Positions 26,529-32,943 of a stretch of DNA of 64,000 nt are shown here, piece by piece. The translations under genes and the position numbers were made by a program. How positions within the stretch are numbered: the first letter of the stretch is position 1; each line of letters opens with the position of its first letter. The notes below the pieces were generated by a model that was not told the origin of the DNA, ran no database searches, and was given only the letters and a program-made list of their open reading frames with translations. The DNA lies in the NCBI RefSeq assembly GCF_000243155.2, contig NC_018017.1:1612001-1676000 (forward strand), in the 5' to 3' direction. This DNA is from Desulfitobacterium dehalogenans ATCC 51507 (GTDB taxonomy: Bacteria > Bacillota > Desulfitobacteriia > Desulfitobacteriales > Desulfitobacteriaceae).

Positions 26529-26679
26529 GCCCTTCTGAATGGTTTACAATCAAAACCCTCCACTATGACACCAGGCTTTTCCGCAATGATATTGTAGCAG
26601 AATAGGAGGGGGGTGATATAATTTAGATGAATACTTATAAGACGGAAATTCAAAAGCGTATAGCGTTTCGGAGGCAGAA

Positions 26680-27012
26680 ATGGATGAAAGAATAATTGCG
26701 GAAATACTAAAATTTCGTGATGAACGTGGATGGAAACAATATCACAATCCTAAAGATCTCGCCATATCCCTTTCTCTGGAAGTAGCGGAACTATTGGAGA
26801 ACTTTCAATGGTCATCTTCCGAAGAGGCTGTTAGTAAACGGATTCCTAACATTAGAGAAGAACTTGCGGATGTGCTGATTTATTCGGTGCTGTTTGCCGA
26901 GGCGGTTGGCCTGGACTTGAACGATATTATCATGGAAAAGCTCAGTATGAATAACCAAAAATATCCTATTGAAAAAGCCTTTGGCAAAAAAGAAAAGTAT
27001 ACGGAGTTATGA
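26680..27012 (+). CDS. MazG-type nucleotide pyrophosphohydrolase (110 aa)
   Basis: All-alpha NTP pyrophosphatase. The Mg-binding motifs LSLEVAELLENFQW (ExxE) and IREELADVLIYSV (ExxD) are intact and the size fits the dCTPase/RS21-C6-like branch. It hydrolyses (d)NTPs to monophosphate and PPi, cleaning damaged nucleotides or draining the pool. Its stop is 1 bp before the start of the DUF2075 gene, so the two form one tight unit. TTTCGGAGGCAG precedes the ATG. Confidence 0.9.
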   Translation: MDERIIAEILKFRDERGWKQYHNPKDLAISLSLEVAELLENFQWSSSEEAVSKRIPNIREELADVLIYSVLFAEAVGLDLNDIIMEKLSMNNQKYPIEKAFGKKEKYTEL

Positions 27013-27013
27013 C

Positions 27014-28966
27014 ATGCTTGTTTATGCTGAATTAAAAAAAGACTTTATGCAGCACGTTCGGGATAACCGGATCTCCGATATGATCCTTGATTCTATGAAA
27101 CGGAAATTCGGGCGCGGAGTTGGAAGATCTGAACAGCAGTCCTGGCAGGTTTCCCTGCAGTTTATGCGCAACATTCTCGACGACACAGCAATTCCGGATA
27201 ATTCGGGAATTGCAATTGAATATAATATTCCGCAGACCGGAAGAAGAATCGACTTCATTATTTCGGGATATGACGAGAATAGAAGCGGAAATGTCATCAT
27301 TATTGAGCTTAAACAATGGGATGAGGCGAAATTGTCAAGATTGAACGATCACGTTCAAGTCGCGCCATACGGTGATGTCCGACATCCTTCATATCAGGCC
27401 TGGTCCTATAAAACACTTATGGAGGATTACAATACGACCATTCAACAGGAGCAGATTGGCTTATATCCGTGTGCTTATCTTCATAACTATAAAGAAGATG
27501 AAAACGTACCGGTTATCAGAAATTCATTCTACGAAGAGTATTTGCGTGAAGCCCCAGCTTTTCTGAAGAATGACAGTGAAAAATTGCGCAGTTTCATCAA
27601 ACGGTTCATCAAACATGGCGATAAAAAAGAAGTGCTTTATAAAATAGATGCCGGTAAGATTCGCCCGTCCAAAAATCTGGCCAATTGTCTCGCCTCTTTG
27701 ATGGCGGGCAAACGGGAATTCGTTCTTATCGAAGAACAAAAAACCGTTTATGAAACGGCATTGGCTTTAGCTGATACAGTGACCGGAAAGAAGAAGCGTG
27801 TACTCATTGTCAGAGGAGGACCGGGAACAGGGAAATCTGTTGTTGCAATTAATTTAATCGTTGAATTGACGAAGCGGGAAAAGCTGGTTCACTACGTGAC
27901 AAGCAACGCGGCCCCGCGGGCGATATACGAGGCGAGACTATCCGGTGAGATGCGCAAAACCCGTATCTCCAATATGTTCAAGGGGGCAACCGTTTATCAG
28001 GGTTTAGAGGAAAATGCCATGGATGTATTGATCGTTGATGAGGCGCATCGCTTGAGTGCTCGTAACCTCCTCAATACGTATAAAGGAAATCAAGTTAAGG
28101 ACCTGATCAATGCTGCGAAGCTAACCGTATTTTTCCTGGACGAAGCACAAAAAGTACTGATCGAGGATATTGGCAGTGAAGAGGAAATCGTCAAACAGGC
28201 AAAGGCTTTCGGCGCGGAAGTGACGGTAAAGGATTTGCCATCTCAGTTCCGCTGCAATGGATCTGATGGCTATCTTGCATGGCTTGACACTACGCTTGGC
28301 ATTCGTGAAACGGCAAATATGACCCTTGAAGGTATTGATTACGATTTCAGGATAATAGACTCTCCCGCTGAATTACACCGCTTGATTCGCGAAAAAAATG
28401 TGTCGGTGAATTTCGGAAGCGGGTCGAGAATGGTTGCGGGGTATTGTTGGCCATGGGCCAGCAAGAAAAATCCCATAGCTACAGATATCAATATCGGAGA
28501 TTATCAGGTCAGATGGAACAAAAGCAGTGATGGATCTCTGTGGGCTATTGCGGAAGATTCAATTGAGGAGATAGGGTGTATTCATACTTGCCAGGGACTC
28601 GAGTTTGATTACGTCGGTGTAATTATCGGTGAGGATCTGATCGTTAAGGATGGTGTGATCGTAACCCAACCTGAAGCCCGTGACAAAGTGGATGCCAATA
28701 AAACCCTTCGAGGCTATAAAACGATGATAAAGGATAAGGATCCCTCTGTTGTGGAAAAGGCGAAGCTCATGGCGGATGAGGTCATTCGGAATACCTATAA
28801 GGTACTGATGACGCGAGGGCAAAAGGGGTGTTATGTTTACTGCTGTAATAGAGAATTAGCCGAATATCTGAAAAGCAGGATTAGTGGTCCCCGTTATAGC
28901 TGTAATGAAAAGAGCTATTCAATGGCGGCAGAAGAGCCTAACAAGAAGTATAAAGGAAGAGAATAA
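27014..28966 (+). CDS. DUF2075 P-loop NTPase with nuclease-like N-terminus (650 aa)
   Basis: Residues 1-200 hold a PD-(D/E)xK-like core: RRIDFIISGY (Asp near 79) then VIIIELKQW (E97-x-K99). The DUF2075/superfamily-1-helicase-like domain follows: RGGPGTGKSVVAINL (about 268-282), LIVDEAHRL (about 338), VFFLDEAQKV, LPSQFRCNG and the late motif IHTCQGLEFDYVGVIIG (about 520), then KVLMTRGQKG. It therefore looks like a nuclease-helicase. Start 27014 is taken, 1 bp after the MazG-like stop; an in-frame extension inside mazG is less likely. Probably DNA or RNA processing, possibly defence. Confidence 0.85.
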   Translation: MLVYAELKKDFMQHVRDNRISDMILDSMKRKFGRGVGRSEQQSWQVSLQFMRNILDDTAIPDNSGIAIEYNIPQTGRRIDFIISGYDENRSGNVIIIELKQWDEAKLSRLNDHVQVAPYGDVRHPSYQAWSYKTLMEDYNTTIQQEQIGLYPCAYLHNYKEDENVPVIRNSFYEEYLREAPAFLKNDSEKLRSFIKRFIKHGDKKEVLYKIDAGKIRPSKNLANCLASLMAGKREFVLIEEQKTVYETALALADTVTGKKKRVLIVRGGPGTGKSVVAINLIVELTKREKLVHYVTSNAAPRAIYEARLSGEMRKTRISNMFKGATVYQGLEENAMDVLIVDEAHRLSARNLLNTYKGNQVKDLINAAKLTVFFLDEAQKVLIEDIGSEEEIVKQAKAFGAEVTVKDLPSQFRCNGSDGYLAWLDTTLGIRETANMTLEGIDYDFRIIDSPAELHRLIREKNVSVNFGSGSRMVAGYCWPWASKKNPIATDINIGDYQVRWNKSSDGSLWAIAEDSIEEIGCIHTCQGLEFDYVGVIIGEDLIVKDGVIVTQPEARDKVDANKTLRGYKTMIKDKDPSVVEKAKLMADEVIRNTYKVLMTRGQKGCYVYCCNRELAEYLKSRISGPRYSCNEKSYSMAAEEPNKKYKGRE

Positions 28967-28967
28967 T

Positions 28968-29005
28968 AAAAAATGAAGCAGGTGCTAGTACTGCTTCATT
29001 TTTTT
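28968..29005. terminator. bidirectional terminator
   Basis: AAAAAATGAAGCAG and CTGCTTCATTTTTTT form a 14-bp stem. The XRE stop codon (28996-28998) lies in the right arm, so two convergent genes share it. Confidence 0.92.
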
Positions 29006-29304
29006 AGGCCTTTGATTATTTCATGAATGTTGGTTATTTGCTTTTCGTCCAAGGTCTTTAAATCCTCGATGATCTCCCTTATTAAAGCCGGATAGCTTGT
29101 GCTTTCGTCAAAGAATTCCTTGGGGGAGATTTTGAAGTATTCGCAGATATAAAAGAATACTTGCATAGAGGGCATGGATTTTCCGTTTTCAATATGATTG
29201 ATATAGTTTTCATTCTGCCCAATGGATAAGCTCATATCACGGGCAGAAACCTTTTTCATAGTTCTCAGTTTGGCAATTCGCTCAGATAGAAATTTTTCAT
29301 ACAT
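28996..29304 (-). CDS. XRE family transcriptional regulator (102 aa)
   Basis: N-terminal Cro/CI helix-turn-helix: ERIAKLRTMKKVSARDMSLS, then GQNENYINHIENGKSMPSMQ (residues about 8-60), followed by a short SinR-like C-terminal part (FYICEYFKISPKEFFDE). ATG 29304 has GGTGGTGG upstream; the in-frame GTG 12 bp earlier overlaps that site. Its promoter region shares TACAATATTGTA boxes with the divergent gene at 29453, so it should regulate both itself and that gene. Confidence 0.9.
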   Translation of the reverse strand: MYEKFLSERIAKLRTMKKVSARDMSLSIGQNENYINHIENGKSMPSMQVFFYICEYFKISPKEFFDESTSYPALIREIIEDLKTLDEKQITNIHEIIKGLKK

Positions 29305-29321
29305 ATGTACCACCACCTATA

Positions 29322-29426
29322 TACAATATTGTACATTTCATTAAAGATATATTCACAATATCTGAAGTCCTGTTTTAATTGACGTACAATATTAAATATT
29401 GTAATATTGAATGAATTACAATATTA
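29322..29426. promoter_or_regulatory. divergent regulatory region with TACAATATTGTA boxes
   Basis: Box 1 TACAATATTGTA (29322-29333) is a perfect palindrome near the XRE start. Box 2 TACAATATTAAATATTGTA (29385-29403) is a perfect 19-bp palindrome lying exactly between TTGACG (29379-29384) and TAATAT (29402-29407), a 17-bp-spaced rightward promoter. Half sites occur at 29355-29361 and 29416-29425 (TTACAATATT). The XRE protein is the obvious binder. Confidence 0.88.
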
Positions 29427-29452
29427 GAAGGCGTGAAGGGTGGCAAACCGGT

Positions 29453-29692
29453 ATGAATATGAGAAATATATATCGTAAAACTGCAAAAAAACATGGTGTA
29501 ACTGTTGCAGAAGTTAAAAAGGGCATGCAGGCAGCTATTGATCTTGCTTACACAAAAACTGACAAATCCGATCGTGAAAAGATGATGCAAGAGAGTATAC
29601 CTCGTAGGAGTGAAGTACCTACAGCGGGTGAATTTGTTGAATCTGTAGCTCATAAATTGCTAAAGGAGATGGTAAAAGCTGAGAGAGGCTGA
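29453..29692 (+). CDS. small helical protein under XRE-type control (79 aa)
   Basis: MNMRNIYRKTAKKHGVTVAE, then VKKGMQAAIDLAYTKTDKSD and a C-terminal VESVAHKLLKEMVKAERG. The N-terminal KIYRKxAxxHGVSVxEVKxxMQxAID pattern resembles small Clostridial proteins linked in annotation to Spo0A-like or phage genes; function unknown. Start at 29453 because transcription from the promoter at 29379-29407 begins near 29414, after the longer ORF's first codon, and GAAGGGTGG precedes it. Divergent from its presumed repressor. Confidence 0.65.
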   Translation: MNMRNIYRKTAKKHGVTVAEVKKGMQAAIDLAYTKTDKSDREKMMQESIPRRSEVPTAGEFVESVAHKLLKEMVKAERG

Positions 29693-29772
29693 ATTGAACT
29701 TAAAAAAGGTGCTGGAGATGCTGAGGCGGAAAAGGTAGACAGCACGACTTTCGGAAAAATAGCAGCTTAAGA

Positions 29773-29809
29773 AGATCAAGGGGCGGCCAGACGGCCGCCT
29801 CTTGATTTA
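29773..29809. terminator. GC-rich hairpin between convergent genes
   Basis: AGATCAAGGGGCGGCC, AGAC loop, GGCCGCCTCTTGATTT. Likely a shared terminator for 29453 (+) and the DUF2922 gene (-). Confidence 0.75.
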
Positions 29810-29815
29810 GAGCAC

Positions 29816-29875
29816 GACCAATGACCCTGCTGAGCCCCCGTTTAAGCTTGAGGGGGATCGTACATGTCATTGGTC
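29816..29875. repeat. nested inverted repeat over the DUF2922 gene end
   Basis: Outer arms GACCAATGAC and GTCATTGGTC (10 bp, perfect) enclose an inner CCCCC...GGGGG stem around TTTAAGCTTGA. The right outer arm lies inside the DUF2922 coding sequence, so the mRNA end folds into a long hairpin. Confidence 0.65.
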
Positions 29876-30081
29876 ATCGTTCCCACGATCCGAATATCTC
29901 TCTTTCCGGTCAGCTCTCCGCTGGCGGAAAGAAAGATATTCTTTTCAATAACCGTATCCATAGCGGCTTCGATTTCACCTTTGGTCAAGTCCGGCCTGGG
30001 GTCATCCAGGCTGAAGGAAAACGCTTTGTTACCCGTCGTATTAAAGGTCAACCGCAGAACCGTTTTGTTTATGATGGCCAT
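29842..30081 (-). CDS. DUF2922 family protein (79 aa)
   Basis: MAIINKTVLRLTFNTTGNKAF, then DDPRPDLTKGEIEAAMDTVI and a short C-terminal strand (KRDIRIVGTM). This is the usual DUF2922 pattern; the family is paired with DUF1659 across Clostridia and Bacilli, as here 35 bp apart. Function unknown. AAAGGAGGTGC precedes the ATG. Confidence 0.85.
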   Translation of the reverse strand: MAIINKTVLRLTFNTTGNKAFSFSLDDPRPDLTKGEIEAAMDTVIEKNIFLSASGELTGKRDIRIVGTMTNDMYDPPQA

Positions 30082-30116
30082 CGCTGCACCTCCTTTCTGG
30101 TCAATGCTTCCGAGAG

Positions 30117-30341
30117 TTACTCGTCTATCAGATCGAAATTCTTCCTGAGAATCGTCTGAATCACCAGGCGTTCGCTCAGGCCGAATAAAGCTGCCGCCAC
30201 ATCATAAATATCTTGGTCCGTGGCGTTAGCTTTGACATTGTTCAGGCTTTTTTGCCTGATGATCGGAGTGCCGGAGGGGGTTTCGCCCACTTGATATCTT
30301 ATCACTACCGTCGAACTCAATGGATAAGCTACTACACCCAT
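30117..30341 (-). CDS. DUF1659 family protein (74 aa)
   Basis: MGVVAYPLSSTVVIRYQVG, then SLNNVKANATDQDIYDVAAAL and a C-terminal LVIQTILRKNFDLIDE: the DUF1659 signature (beta hairpin, then helix). The start at 30341 has AGAAAGGAGGGTG; longer readings lack it. First gene of the DUF1659-DUF2922 pair. Role unknown. Confidence 0.85.
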   Translation of the reverse strand: MGVVAYPLSSTVVIRYQVGETPSGTPIIRQKSLNNVKANATDQDIYDVAAALFGLSERLVIQTILRKNFDLIDE

Positions 30342-30548
30342 GTGCGTCACCCTCCTTTCTGCAGTATTGACCGGCCGGGAGAACCCGTCCTGTCCGTTTA
30401 TCTTATGGGCTTGTTCATCCGGAGGTGACAGAGGCAAGGACGGCTTTGTTAAGGAAGGGTTATTCTTAAAAATATCATTTGGTTCGTCACACTTAAGACC
30501 TTGACCGCATAGTCTATGAATAGATTAACCAAAAAGGACGCGGTAATC

Positions 30549-30956
30549 ATGATCATGAACTATGTCTTTCCGGCCATCGTCGAGTACAATGCCCTATCGG
30601 GCAGGTATATCGTCATTTTCCCGGATCTGCCGGACCTTATCTGCCAGGGGGAAACACCGGAAGACGCTTTTCACCAGGCGGAGCTTTCTTTGGAGATTTA
30701 TCTATATCGTATGGAAAAGGACAAGAAACAGGTCCCGGAAGCCTCCGATCCTGCAAACTGGCAAAAGCGGGAGGACGCCGTGGTCATTGTGCTGGAAGCT
30801 GATATGTTGGAGGTCCGGCGGGCCCTTGATAAGAAATCGGTTTCCAAATGTATCATGATTCCTAAATGGTTAAAGGATCTGGGGGAAGAAAATGGTGTGG
30901 ATTTCGTCCGAATCCTGAAGGAAGGGTTAATGGATGAGCTGGGAATTCCCGATTAA
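30549..30956 (+). CDS. HicB-like antitoxin-type protein without HicA (135 aa)
   Basis: N-terminal HicB fold: YVFPAIVEYNALSGRYIVIF, PDLPDLICQGETPEDAFHQAELSLEIYL, matching the partly degenerate RNase H-like HicB domain. The C-terminal half carries a second segment (VSKCIMIPKWLKDLGEENGVDF) that resembles a ribbon-helix-helix-like DNA-binding part. No HicA-sized gene with the double-stranded-RNA-binding fold is adjacent. It is followed 15 bp later by a DUF3102 gene. AAAAAGGACG precedes the ATG; in-frame extension to 30516 is unlikely. Confidence 0.75.
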   Translation: MIMNYVFPAIVEYNALSGRYIVIFPDLPDLICQGETPEDAFHQAELSLEIYLYRMEKDKKQVPEASDPANWQKREDAVVIVLEADMLEVRRALDKKSVSKCIMIPKWLKDLGEENGVDFVRILKEGLMDELGIPD

Positions 30957-30971
30957 AGGCAGGGAACCTTG

Positions 30972-31796
30972 ATGGAGGATTTGAGCATAGAACGCACGCC
31001 GCTTTTAATTGCGGCTGAAATAAATACGATTAAACATCAGGTGAGCAAAGTTCTTCTCTTCAGTGCCATCGAGATCGGCTGCCGCCTGGCGGAGGCCAAA
31101 AGTCTGATCCCCTATGGGGAATGGGGCAAGTGGCTGGAAGAATCAGTAAGTTACTCTCAGAGAACAGCAAACAACCTGATCCGCCTGTTTGAGGAGTATG
31201 GATCCAATCAGCCTGCTTTACAAGATTCGCAAGCGCTTGCCAAACTGAACTACACCCAGGGAATCATTCTTCTGGGCGTCCCGGAGGAGGAACGGGCTCA
31301 GTTTATTGCAGAGCTGGATCTGGAAAGCATGTCAACAAGGGAACTGCAAAAGGCGGTTCAAGAGCGGAACCGGGCTGCGGAAGAACGGGACCGGGCCCTG
31401 CAAGAAAAGACAGAACTTCAGCAAGCCCTGGCGGACCAGGACGGCCAGATAACTCGGCTGAGCGACGAACGGGACAACCTAATAACAAAAGTGGAAGAGT
31501 TGAATCAAGCCAAAGCAAAGAGCGAGGCCAGGGCCGAGAAGCTAAGCCTGGATCTGAAAAACCTTAAGCATGATACTTCCGCCCAGGCCATCGACCGGAT
31601 GAGCAACAGGCTTGATCAGGCTTACCACAAGAGCAAGGCCAATAAAGTTGCCTTTTTATACGAGAGCCTGGACCGGAACTTCAGGGAACTTTTGTGGGAG
31701 TTGAAGGAATTTGCCAAGCAGGAGCCGGACACTTATAAAGTCTACAAAGATAAGATCGTAAATTTCTTGGCGGAGGGCTTAAAAGCGAAAATGTAA
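30972..31796 (+). CDS. DUF3102 coiled-coil protein (274 aa)
   Basis: DUF3102 domain at residues 8-85 (IAAEINTIKHQVSKVLLFSA, GCRLAEAKSLIPYGEWGKWL, SQRTANNLIRLFEEYG), a helix-turn-helix-bearing module of phage and plasmid proteins. A long coiled coil rich in Glu, Arg and Gln follows (about 110-200), then a short helical C-terminus. ATG 30972 follows AGGCAGGGA. In phages such proteins accompany replication or host-takeover genes; here it shares a unit with the HicB-like gene. Confidence 0.82.
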   Translation: MEDLSIERTPLLIAAEINTIKHQVSKVLLFSAIEIGCRLAEAKSLIPYGEWGKWLEESVSYSQRTANNLIRLFEEYGSNQPALQDSQALAKLNYTQGIILLGVPEEERAQFIAELDLESMSTRELQKAVQERNRAAEERDRALQEKTELQQALADQDGQITRLSDERDNLITKVEELNQAKAKSEARAEKLSLDLKNLKHDTSAQAIDRMSNRLDQAYHKSKANKVAFLYESLDRNFRELLWELKEFAKQEPDTYKVYKDKIVNFLAEGLKAKM

Positions 31797-31856
31797 AATA
31801 AAATGAAACCCCTTTATCCGAATGGTAAATATACGGATAAAGGGGTATTTTATTTC
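31797..31856. terminator. bidirectional terminator after DUF3102 gene
   Basis: ACCCCTTTATCCG and CGGATAAAGGGGT form the stem, with AAAATAAAAT before and ATTTTATTT after. Confidence 0.9.
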
Positions 31857-32115
31857 AGCTCCACCCTGTACCATTTCCAAGCTGGTGACCTCGATGATCT
31901 CCCCGTGAACTGTACATTGGTCTATAGCATGCATTTCTGTTGTTAGAATATCGATACGGTCGGGCCACGGGCAGGAAACCATGCGGCCCGGAGCCCTTTG
32001 CGGATCAGCCTGCCATTGTTGCAGCAGCTCGGGTGTCACATAATCGCTATAATATTCGGCAATGCTGGCAGCCGCACTATCTGGAGGGGGAGAGGAGCAA
32101 CACAGCTTTTTTTAT
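31857..32115 (-). pseudogene. internal fragment of an unrecognised protein gene
   Basis: An open frame reads [40 protein letters not shown], then HGEIIEVTSLEMVQGG before running into the terminator. It looks protein-like but has no proper start or end: its upstream side collides with the erm 3' end (about 32110) and its downstream side ends at the terminator arm (about 31857). It is probably a piece of a resident gene cut by the erm-carrying segment. No family recognised. Confidence 0.55.
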
Positions 32116-32943
32116 CTTCGGCCATCTGAATTTTGGAACATGCTTCACCATTGTTTCAAATATGAGTCCCCATTGCCGTTCCGATAAAGTCGCAACTGTA
32201 ACCTCATTCTTTATGCGAAGACTAGTTTTTAAATGCTTAATTTGAGGTGGTGTAAATACACCTCTCAATGCTAAATCGATAGATAATTGGGGGTTTTTAA
32301 GCACATAAGCGACTAATCCCCAAAAGATTAAATAATCGCTATAAGGTACAATCGGTTTAGCTTTTCTGTTTATGGTAATCATTGCGGAATCAACCCTTGG
32401 TGGTGGAGAGAAATTCTTACTTGAAATCGCTTTAACATACTGAATATCAAACCACATTTTCCAAGCGATTACATATGGATCTTTCACAAAATTTGACGTG
32501 AATCTTTTGGCTGCACCTTTTTCCATTACGATAACTCCTCTTTGAAAACCGTTTGATGGGTTATTAAGAAGCATTTTCATAATCGGTGTTGTAATGGCAT
32601 ATGGAATATTTGAAACAACTACAAAATGCTCTCGAGGTAGCGAAATTTTTAATATATCCTGCTCGATTATCACTGTATTTTTCATTTCAAGCTGTTTTAA
32701 TTTCTTTATAAACTTTTGATCGTATTCAACAGCGACAACCTTTCTTGCTTGATTACTTAAAACCAATGTCAATCCCCCTTTTCCGGCACCTAAGTCTAAA
32801 ACTATATCATGAGTGCTGATTTTTGCTTGATCTACAATCTCATTAATCAGCTTCTTATTATGAATCAAATGTTGCCCGCTAAAATTGGGGGAATTCCCAG
32901 TGGTAAATTTTCTATTTTGATTCTTTTTCCTTCTTCTTGTCAT
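32077..32943 (-). CDS. erm: Erm 23S rRNA adenine-N6 methyltransferase, Erm(D)-like (288 aa)
   Basis: SAM-dependent methylation of A2058 in 23S rRNA, giving macrolide-lincosamide-streptogramin B resistance. [20 protein letters not shown] (17-36), motif [10 protein letters not shown] (49-57), the adenine-binding [18 protein letters not shown] (112-129) and MEKGAAKRF are as in Erm(D)/Erm(K). The end after FRWPKIKK differs from Erm(D) and is read from the neighbouring gene fragment. AAAGGGTTG precedes the ATG. A roughly 390-nt leader with peptide and terminator hairpin indicates inducible attenuation. Mobile origin is likely because of the broken gene beside it. Confidence 0.92.

Follow-up and report, generated by a model that had tools for sequence, protein, structure and literature searches.

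This locus raises the question of whether two tightly spaced genes of Desulfitobacterium dehalogenans ATCC 51507, one coding for a MazG-like nucleotide pyrophosphohydrolase and the other for a 650-residue protein of the DUF2075 family (a putative nuclease-helicase), form a functional unit, and if so what that unit does. They lie in a 64,000-nucleotide stretch of contig NC_018017.1 (positions 1,612,001 to 1,676,000 of the forward strand), called the window below, and had been picked out in a first-pass annotation, made from the letters of the DNA, as a candidate undescribed defence or stress unit. The pair was found to be a real, conserved module, the adjacency of its two genes being far beyond chance, and it probably serves in defence against phages or other mobile DNA. 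The features of the pair are, in window coordinates:

26670-26674, plus strand: GGAGG ribosome-binding site of the MazG gene, read in the sequence
26680-27012, plus strand: MazG-like nucleotide pyrophosphohydrolase gene, 110 amino acids, stop codon TGA at 27010-27012 (open reading frame and profile match)
27003-27006, plus strand: GGAG ribosome-binding site of the nuclease-helicase gene, within the 3' end of the MazG reading frame, read in the sequence
27014-28966, plus strand: nuclease-helicase gene (PF09848/DUF2075), 650 amino acids, ATG start (open reading frame and profile match)
27014-27703, plus strand: very probable N-terminal PD-(D/E)XK nuclease domain, residues 1-230 (conservation, AlphaFold2 model and fold comparison)
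27794-28846, plus strand: SLFN-g3 superfamily 1 helicase core, residues 261-611 (PF09848 match and VIA-align matches)
28969-29003, no strand assigned: hairpin with A and T flanks (RNA fold)

As first annotated, a single base pair separates the MazG stop codon from the ATG of the 650-residue protein, and each gene has its own Shine-Dalgarno-like site. The ATG at 27014 was backed by an alignment in which relatives begin at the equivalent methionine, and a longer open reading frame (ORF) starting at TTG is therefore superfluous.

Conservation and surroundings of the gene pair

Genomes were searched with the 650-residue window protein alone (E <= 1e-20), a search blind to MazG, in samples of 82 genomes of the class, 296 genomes of the phylum of G380 (which carries the Flagellimonas locus L065; 'Bacteroidota') and 398 genomes of the phylum of G375 (which carries the Marichromatium locus L051; 'Pseudomonadota'). 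The gene was found at 4, 15 and 10 places, respectively, and a MazG gene lay on the same strand within 1.1 kb at 4, 14 and 9 of them, or 27 of 29 in all. The two unpaired places were L094, which coincides with L139, and L112, where G975 has a second copy interrupted by stop codons. When the centre genomes G000, G380 and G375, already known as carriers, were removed, 24 of 26 places were paired. Rare conservation, named in the first-pass annotation as grounds for giving up the idea of a unit, was thus not what the neighbourhood search returned. Among the genome_contigs loci, MazG lay beside 37 of 44 copies, and it was absent from all 18 control regions (20 kb each).

Co-occurrence could also be examined genome by genome. 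In the 296 Bacteroidota-side genomes, 15 carried the nuclease-helicase gene, 21 carried MazG (E <= 1e-10) and 14 carried both (Fisher p 5e-18), and with the centre genome left out 13 of 14 carriers still had MazG. In all 14 double carriers the two genes were neighbours; the gap ranged from -4 to 17 bp in 13 genomes and was 1088 bp in the remaining one. Bacteria of several phyla and a haloarchaeon have the module; MazG stands upstream, as in the window, or downstream, as in Halomonadaceae and a few others.

Close to the window species the nuclease-helicase gene is rare: 4 of the 82 class genomes have it, and within the genus 1 genome of 4. The sister genome G301 has flanks that are about 84-90% alike, but there the slot of the pair (about 26644-30481 of the window) holds other genes, named from reading the sequences as acetyltransferase, MerR-type regulator and ABC transporter genes. 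Copies also occur on plasmids and in one named phage: the phage collection gave four records, among them Microcystis phage Mwe-JY31, which has MazG 14 bp upstream, while the two of eight viral_contigs scans that were run gave no confirmed relatives. On a Priestia plasmid the gene is flanked by a DUF3578 gene on one side and a type I restriction cluster on the other.

The surroundings of relatives were assessed in 35 regions around the gene (L124-L158, of which L131 had no match with the profiles of the pair), 16 of them with a control region from the same genome 120-200 kb away (about 30-50 kb for L175); the control regions L160 and L176, having no matching test region, were unused. Neighbouring ORFs of at least 150 amino acids were considered, the pair itself excluded, and a random subset was scanned (128 of the 150 on the test side and 113 of the 204 on the control side). 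At E <= 1e-20, 131 PADLOC families were matched for the 128 test ORFs (16 loci) versus 5 for the 113 control ORFs, both being counts of families rather than proteins, since one protein can match many. Among the 25 of these 131 families that were listed were GajA, GajB, AbiEi, AbiEii, CBASS cyclase, effector, E1-E2 and JAB families, QatA/QatC, ThsB, DpdF and PD-Lambda-2_B. One region, L158 (the same place as L038), had been recognised by eye as a Gabija/AbiE neighbourhood before the enrichment test.

Three single loci may be recorded beside these counts. In Litchfieldella xinjiangensis (L038/L158) the pair stands, by eye, between Gabija-like and AbiE-like systems. On a Hymenobacter plasmid (L077:5001-8987) two tandem DUF2075 genes follow restriction-modification genes, with no MazG in that stretch, and on a Marivirga plasmid (L080:4390-8742) the DUF2075 gene is split into several frames next to an intact MazG.

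Domains, active sites and modular variants

The MazG-like protein matched PF12643 (E 6.5e-21, 74.8 bits, cut-off 27) and, closer to threshold, PF03819 (24.6 bits, cut-off 22), and in the PDB it resembled the pyrophosphatase 4qgp (E 1e-21) and dCTP pyrophosphatase 1 (6sqw, E 1.4e-17). In an alignment of the window MazG with 25 pair-associated MazGs, the ExxE...ExxD metal site (E34, E37, E61 and D64) was identical in 26 of 26 rows, as were W18, H22, N91 and Y95, which align with residues of DCTPP1 that we take to be nucleotide contacts. No second MazG homologue was found in the 4.32-Mb genome of the strain (E <= 0.001). By its sequence, the MazG of the pair appears dCTP-pyrophosphatase-like (dCTP, deoxycytidine triphosphate).

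The N-terminal domain of the 650-residue protein matched no Pfam family at cut-off (in 20 members NERD was weak in three and PDDEXK_4 in one), and it is nevertheless very probably a PD-(D/E)XK nuclease, judging by its conserved motif and a structural model. The catalytic pattern reported in the first-pass annotation as Asp79 and E97-x-K99 was real, but its numbering was one too low: the residues are D80 and E98-x-K100, and they are joined by E69, R78, Q128 and Y132. All seven were identical in 74 of 74 aligned rows, an alignment whose effective number is smaller because it includes near-copies (mostly from Halomonadaceae) and loci fetched twice. The full-length model was poor (predicted local distance difference test, pLDDT, 63.9) and weak in the helicase part, so residues 1-230 were folded alone with AlphaFold2 from an alignment of 20 sequences, giving a pLDDT of 88.6 and a predicted template modelling score of 0.86. 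The model had a helix at 38-55, strands at 65-70, 79-86 and 92-100, a helix at 125-139 and a strand at 149-156, that is, the core order alpha-beta-beta-beta-alpha-beta of PD-(D/E)XK enzymes, with three short additional strands between 92-100 and 125-139. D80 fell on the second strand (79-86), E98 and K100 on the third (92-100), and the QxxxY residues 128 and 132 on the helix that follows. In VIA-align comparisons the top 19 rows were restriction-type, CRISPR-ancillary, Cap4 and EndoMS-type nucleases, which we take to be PD-(D/E)XK enzymes; Cdn1 reached the maximum Z of 6.9 (root-mean-square deviation 4.4, 146 aligned), Can2, VC1899 and Kpn2I were also among the top rows, and Shedu, LmuA and Avs3 appeared further down, all of these matches having Z below 8.

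PF09848, the SLFN-g3 helicase family (formerly DUF2075), matched residues 261-611 (E 3.9e-95, 319.6 bits, cut-off 24). The helicase motifs of the first reading are all there: Walker A (GGPGTGK) at residues 268-274, Walker B (VDEAH) at 341-345 and the late QGLE motif at 527-530. Every one of the 74 rows keeps K274, D342, E343 and R413, while E530 is kept in 73 of them and R601 in 72. The helicase core of the model, taken from the poor full-length prediction, aligned with UvrD, PriA, Rep, Dda and Gabija-complex chains (VIA-align). The protein may be described as a superfamily 1 (SLFN-g3) helicase with a very probable nuclease at its N-terminus, unwinding being predicted from its motifs.

The nuclease is exchangeable. 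A second branch of the helicase family carries an N-terminal GIY-YIG nuclease, detected by Pfam in L129, L147, L153 and L154 and suggested by sequence motif alone in L132, L148-L152 and L155 (Pfam being negative for L132). All 11 GIY-YIG-type loci have an adjoining MazG, and the 11 forms were recovered as one supported group in a tree of the helicase core (96/95). MazG itself may accompany other nucleases: the Bacteroidota set contained 22 MazG places, 14 of them beside the nuclease-helicase gene, while three adjoin HNH nucleases (L177:5874-7207, L180:4232-5474 and L184:5389-6619) and one (L179) stands beside a short GIY-YIG/DUF2075 reading frame, so that at 18 of the 22 places MazG adjoins a whole or partial nuclease gene. 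The remaining places were L178, where MazG lacks a helicase neighbour and lies 305 bp from an SRAP gene, and L181-L183, where more distant MazGs (35-37% identity) have no recognised neighbour. The N-termini of the three HNH proteins presumably resemble PUA/EVE domains. At L184 a C5-cytosine methylase gene was also seen near the MazG and HNH genes.

A further variable part is a C-terminal Peptidase_S24 (LexA/UmuD-like) domain, found in L034:6001-8388, L142:240-2711 (minus strand), L147:8788-10977 (minus strand), L153 and L154, and thus with either the PD-(D/E)XK or the GIY-YIG nuclease. A profile of the tail detected S24 in 47 nuclease-helicase frames, mostly from Halomonadaceae, some of them the same place repeated. 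The AAG (Ala-Ala-Gly) site ahead of the domain, the GESMN serine and the lysine region V/I-K-x-Y were kept in 11 of 11 aligned tails (the twelfth row, L144, is tailless), and their roles are presumably those of LexA/UmuD-type self-cleavage. According to the tree, the S24 tail of PD-(D/E)XK forms requires two changes, and a single origin is also possible. The window protein has no such tail: it ends about 40 residues past the helicase, and PF00717 was absent from the 25 families listed for it and from the alignment. No stand-alone S24 gene was found beside copies lacking the tail, the only S24 frame outside DUF2075 among the loci searched being that of L058, where the gene itself is interrupted.

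The tails of these relatives hint at control by the SOS response. In the S24-tailed forms, RecA filaments on invader single-stranded DNA would trigger self-cleavage, which would activate the nuclease-helicase or set it free; MazG would meanwhile remove the precursors for repair copying. It is a tentative suggestion, which we think rather doubtful, that the pair belongs to a wide and undescribed class with a constant dCTP-type MazG and an exchangeable nuclease, the S24-tailed members of which are SOS-licensed and coupled to nucleotide destruction; if true, the effector itself would, in such relatives, link immunity to the SOS signal.

Proposed function, rival explanations and related systems

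Taken together, the domains, the invariant catalytic residues, the pairing in both gene orders, the swapping of nucleases, the patchy distribution and the defence surroundings of relatives suggest that the pair is probably a two-gene module of defence against phages or other mobile DNA. From these features we infer phage protection itself, what triggers the system, and on which DNA and which nucleotide its two proteins act. The nuclease-helicase would load on structures of invader DNA, such as replication or recombination intermediates, free ends or single strands coated by single-strand-binding protein (SSB), and would then move along the DNA and cut it. MazG would hydrolyse dCTP-type nucleotides during the attack, leaving the invader unable to re-copy its DNA. 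Depletion of nucleotides is the less secure part of this proposal, a plausible role that we hold to be somewhat short of probable. If it is correct, two adjacent genes would link attack on DNA with control of the precursors needed for repairing or copying the attacked DNA.

Several results weigh against this reading. Outside the close family the two genes are paired less often: when 299 genomes of the window's own phylum were searched more loosely with PF09848, MazG adjoined 6 of the 12 strongest loci fetched (paired: L001-L005 and L007; unpaired: L006 and L008-L012). L008 and L010-L012 were partial matches (L012 with internal stops), and L006 and L008 gave no tblastn match to the window protein. 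In phage and plasmid regions MazG adjoins 4 of 9 copies (L075, L079, L080 and L081 of L075-L083); for L076 the plasmid carries a MazG at a distance of about 4 kb, counted across the start of the record, and for L077, L078, L082 and L083 none lies beside the gene. At the seven unpaired genome_contigs loci (L032, L050, L062, L063, L064, L073 and L074) the gene begins near a contig end in two (L050 and L064), while L032 is an 80% identical copy in a metagenome-assembled genome in which no MazG was found. As for the proteins, the nuclease fold is drawn from motifs and a model, with VIA Z-scores of at most 6.9; Foldseek gave nothing under E 0.001 for the nuclease domain (best E 0.12), nor did Foldseek against viral models, and none of the PADLOC models matches MazG. 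Depletion, moreover, could be one among several MazG roles. Finally, the enrichment near defence genes that had been anticipated holds for the 16 tested relatives but not for the window, which is no defence island. When its 54 ORFs of at least 120 amino acids were scanned against PADLOC (E <= 1e-10), the matches were the pair's own to Nhi, AbiO and PDC-S41, and otherwise just mad2, mad3, mad8 and one AriA, the three mad matches being taken to be of a generic regulator or ATPase type.

Two alternatives differ from the defence module with nucleotide depletion only in the job of MazG. It is possible, though we favour it less, that MazG acts as a sanitiser, removing modified dCTP such as the 5-methyl- or 5-hydroxymethyl-dCTP released when phage DNA is broken down. 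Host DNA would then stay free of the modified base and not become a target, or the phage would be deprived of a means of protecting its DNA; this would still be defence. The HNH neighbours of Bacteroidota-side MazG at L177, L180 and L184, and the C5-cytosine methylase near the last of these, would fit such a role; on the other hand, Pfam recognised no modified-base reader in the scanned DUF2075 proteins or in the three HNH proteins, and a preference for one substrate is something that sequence cannot reveal. Alternatively, and in our view unlikely, MazG could be a regulator, an antitoxin or nucleotide sensor that restrains the nuclease at a normal deoxynucleoside triphosphate pool and releases it when a phage has altered that pool. 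The very tight spacing, with start-stop overlaps at many loci, and the retention of MazG while the nuclease type varies agree with this, whereas the fully conserved MazG active site (26 of 26) points to catalysis and MazG is missing at some loci.

A housekeeping role in repair or oxidative stress, in which MazG would clean oxidised dCTP, the nuclease-helicase would process damaged DNA and the defence islands would be incidental, is less likely than the defence module or either of these alternatives, and we consider it quite improbable. Housecleaning MazG enzymes are known (for example, PMC3855555), the MazG of L178 has an SRAP gene for a neighbour instead of a helicase, the LexA-type tails of relatives point to the SOS response, and the window copy lies outside any defence island; the patchy presence, the occupation of the slot by other genes in a sister species, the plasmid and phage copies and the strong defence-gene enrichment around relatives all speak against it. 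That the genes are chance neighbours in this genome, for which only the loci without MazG could be cited (7 of 44, and 6 of 12 in the looser family search), is extremely improbable given the 27 of 29 paired places and the Fisher p value above.

Nuclease-helicase defences and nucleotide-depleting defences are known separately. Gabija (GajA-GajB) resembles the window protein in combining a nuclease with a UvrD-like helicase, Gabija-complex chains align with the window helicase model at Z 10.7-11.1, and, as noted, GajA and GajB were found among the neighbours of the pair in relatives; Gabija, however, has a separate OLD/TOPRIM nuclease protein and no known nucleotide hydrolase partner. Defences based on dCTP deaminase or dGTPase deplete nucleotides and share with the pair a nucleotide-pool enzyme, but here a MazG-type pyrophosphohydrolase is coupled to a nuclease-helicase and depletion is putative. 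The likeness to Nhi (PDLC02372; window residues 235-415 against positions 180-331 of a 470-position profile, E 5.3e-14) and to AbiO (PDLC02350; residues 233-415, E 7.2e-14) is confined to the helicase core and leaves the N-terminal domain unmatched, and the Nhi match falls short of the full profile. Nhi presumably combines a nuclease with a helicase, as its name says, and to our knowledge neither Nhi nor AbiO has been linked to MazG. PDC-S41 (PDLC05014, a 657-position profile), in which we take 'S' to stand for a single-gene candidate, matched residues 21-299 at positions 18-275 plus a second stretch, with 56.7 bits, a low score for its length. Six of eight relatives tested scored 33-64 bits and the GIY-YIG relatives L129 and L147 were unmatched, and PDC-S41 would seem to be a distant relative of the window protein.

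In the published record, the staphylococcal nuclease-helicase immunity system Nhi is described as triggered by phage SSB (PMC10732053), PF09848 is counted as an Abi Pfam in a survey of Escherichia coli defences (PMC10121019), and MazG is a predicted, unvalidated defence domain of DefensePredictor (PMC13092281). The 'Abi proteins' of PMC10121019 share the family PF09848 with the window protein, and the main text of that survey contains neither 'MazG' nor 'helicase'. The main text of PMC13092281 likewise lacks the word 'helicase', and its available passages and legend name no PF09848 or nuclease-helicase partner for the MazG systems; the main text of PMC12839542 contains no MazG. No description of a MazG and DUF2075/PF09848 pair was found in the searched literature, most subscription papers lying outside it. 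The term 'undescribed' may therefore stand for the pair within that literature but not for its components, as both PF09848 (PMC10121019) and MazG (PMC13092281) have already entered the defence literature. The pair offers a small, clear test object for MazG as a defence domain of the kind predicted in PMC13092281.

Neighbouring genes and signals in the window

The hairpin at 28969-29003 (-17.2 kcal/mol, z -3.73, a fold equalled by 1 in 200 shuffled sequences) is a probable terminator shared by the pair and a convergent XRE gene. It is omitted by the consensus scan, which has a loop limit of 8, the loop of the hairpin being 9. Upstream signals were indistinct, the promoter scan giving 12 weak sites versus 7.1 expected by chance, so that no promoter is claimed, and the RNA search of the window found no RNA family at gathering score and no tRNA.

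The flanking genes to which attention had been drawn (an SPL-like radical SAM gene, the XRE regulator, an orphan HicB-like gene and a DUF3102 gene) are present but behave as separate units and not as part of the pair. The XRE gene was rejected as a regulator of the pair, being convergent with it and separated by the hairpin; its region (29000-29656) is 78-79% alike in G330, G312 and G305, of which the first two have no match to the 650-residue protein and the third has its match on another contig. The radical SAM and HicB-like genes were rejected as members of the unit, both being kept in G301 without the pair, and so was the DUF3102 gene, which has a second copy elsewhere in the same genome. 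That copy includes the DUF3102 gene (30941-31851) and the stretch before the HicB-like gene (29816-30540), which are 87-88% alike at G000:C1:4095200-4096831, and weaker matches to both stretches occur in many relatives.

Some minor features were also seen on this side of the pair. A 93-residue protein encoded at 29411-29692, divergently from the XRE gene, resembles the DNA-binding C-terminal domain of Spo0A (PF08769, 1.3e-10), and AT-rich palindrome-like repeats (ACAATATTGT and variants) at 29310-29420, between the XRE and Spo0A-like genes, are by eye probable operators. Farther on, an ORF on the minus strand at 32077-32943 resembles, again by eye, an Erm-type rRNA adenine methyltransferase.

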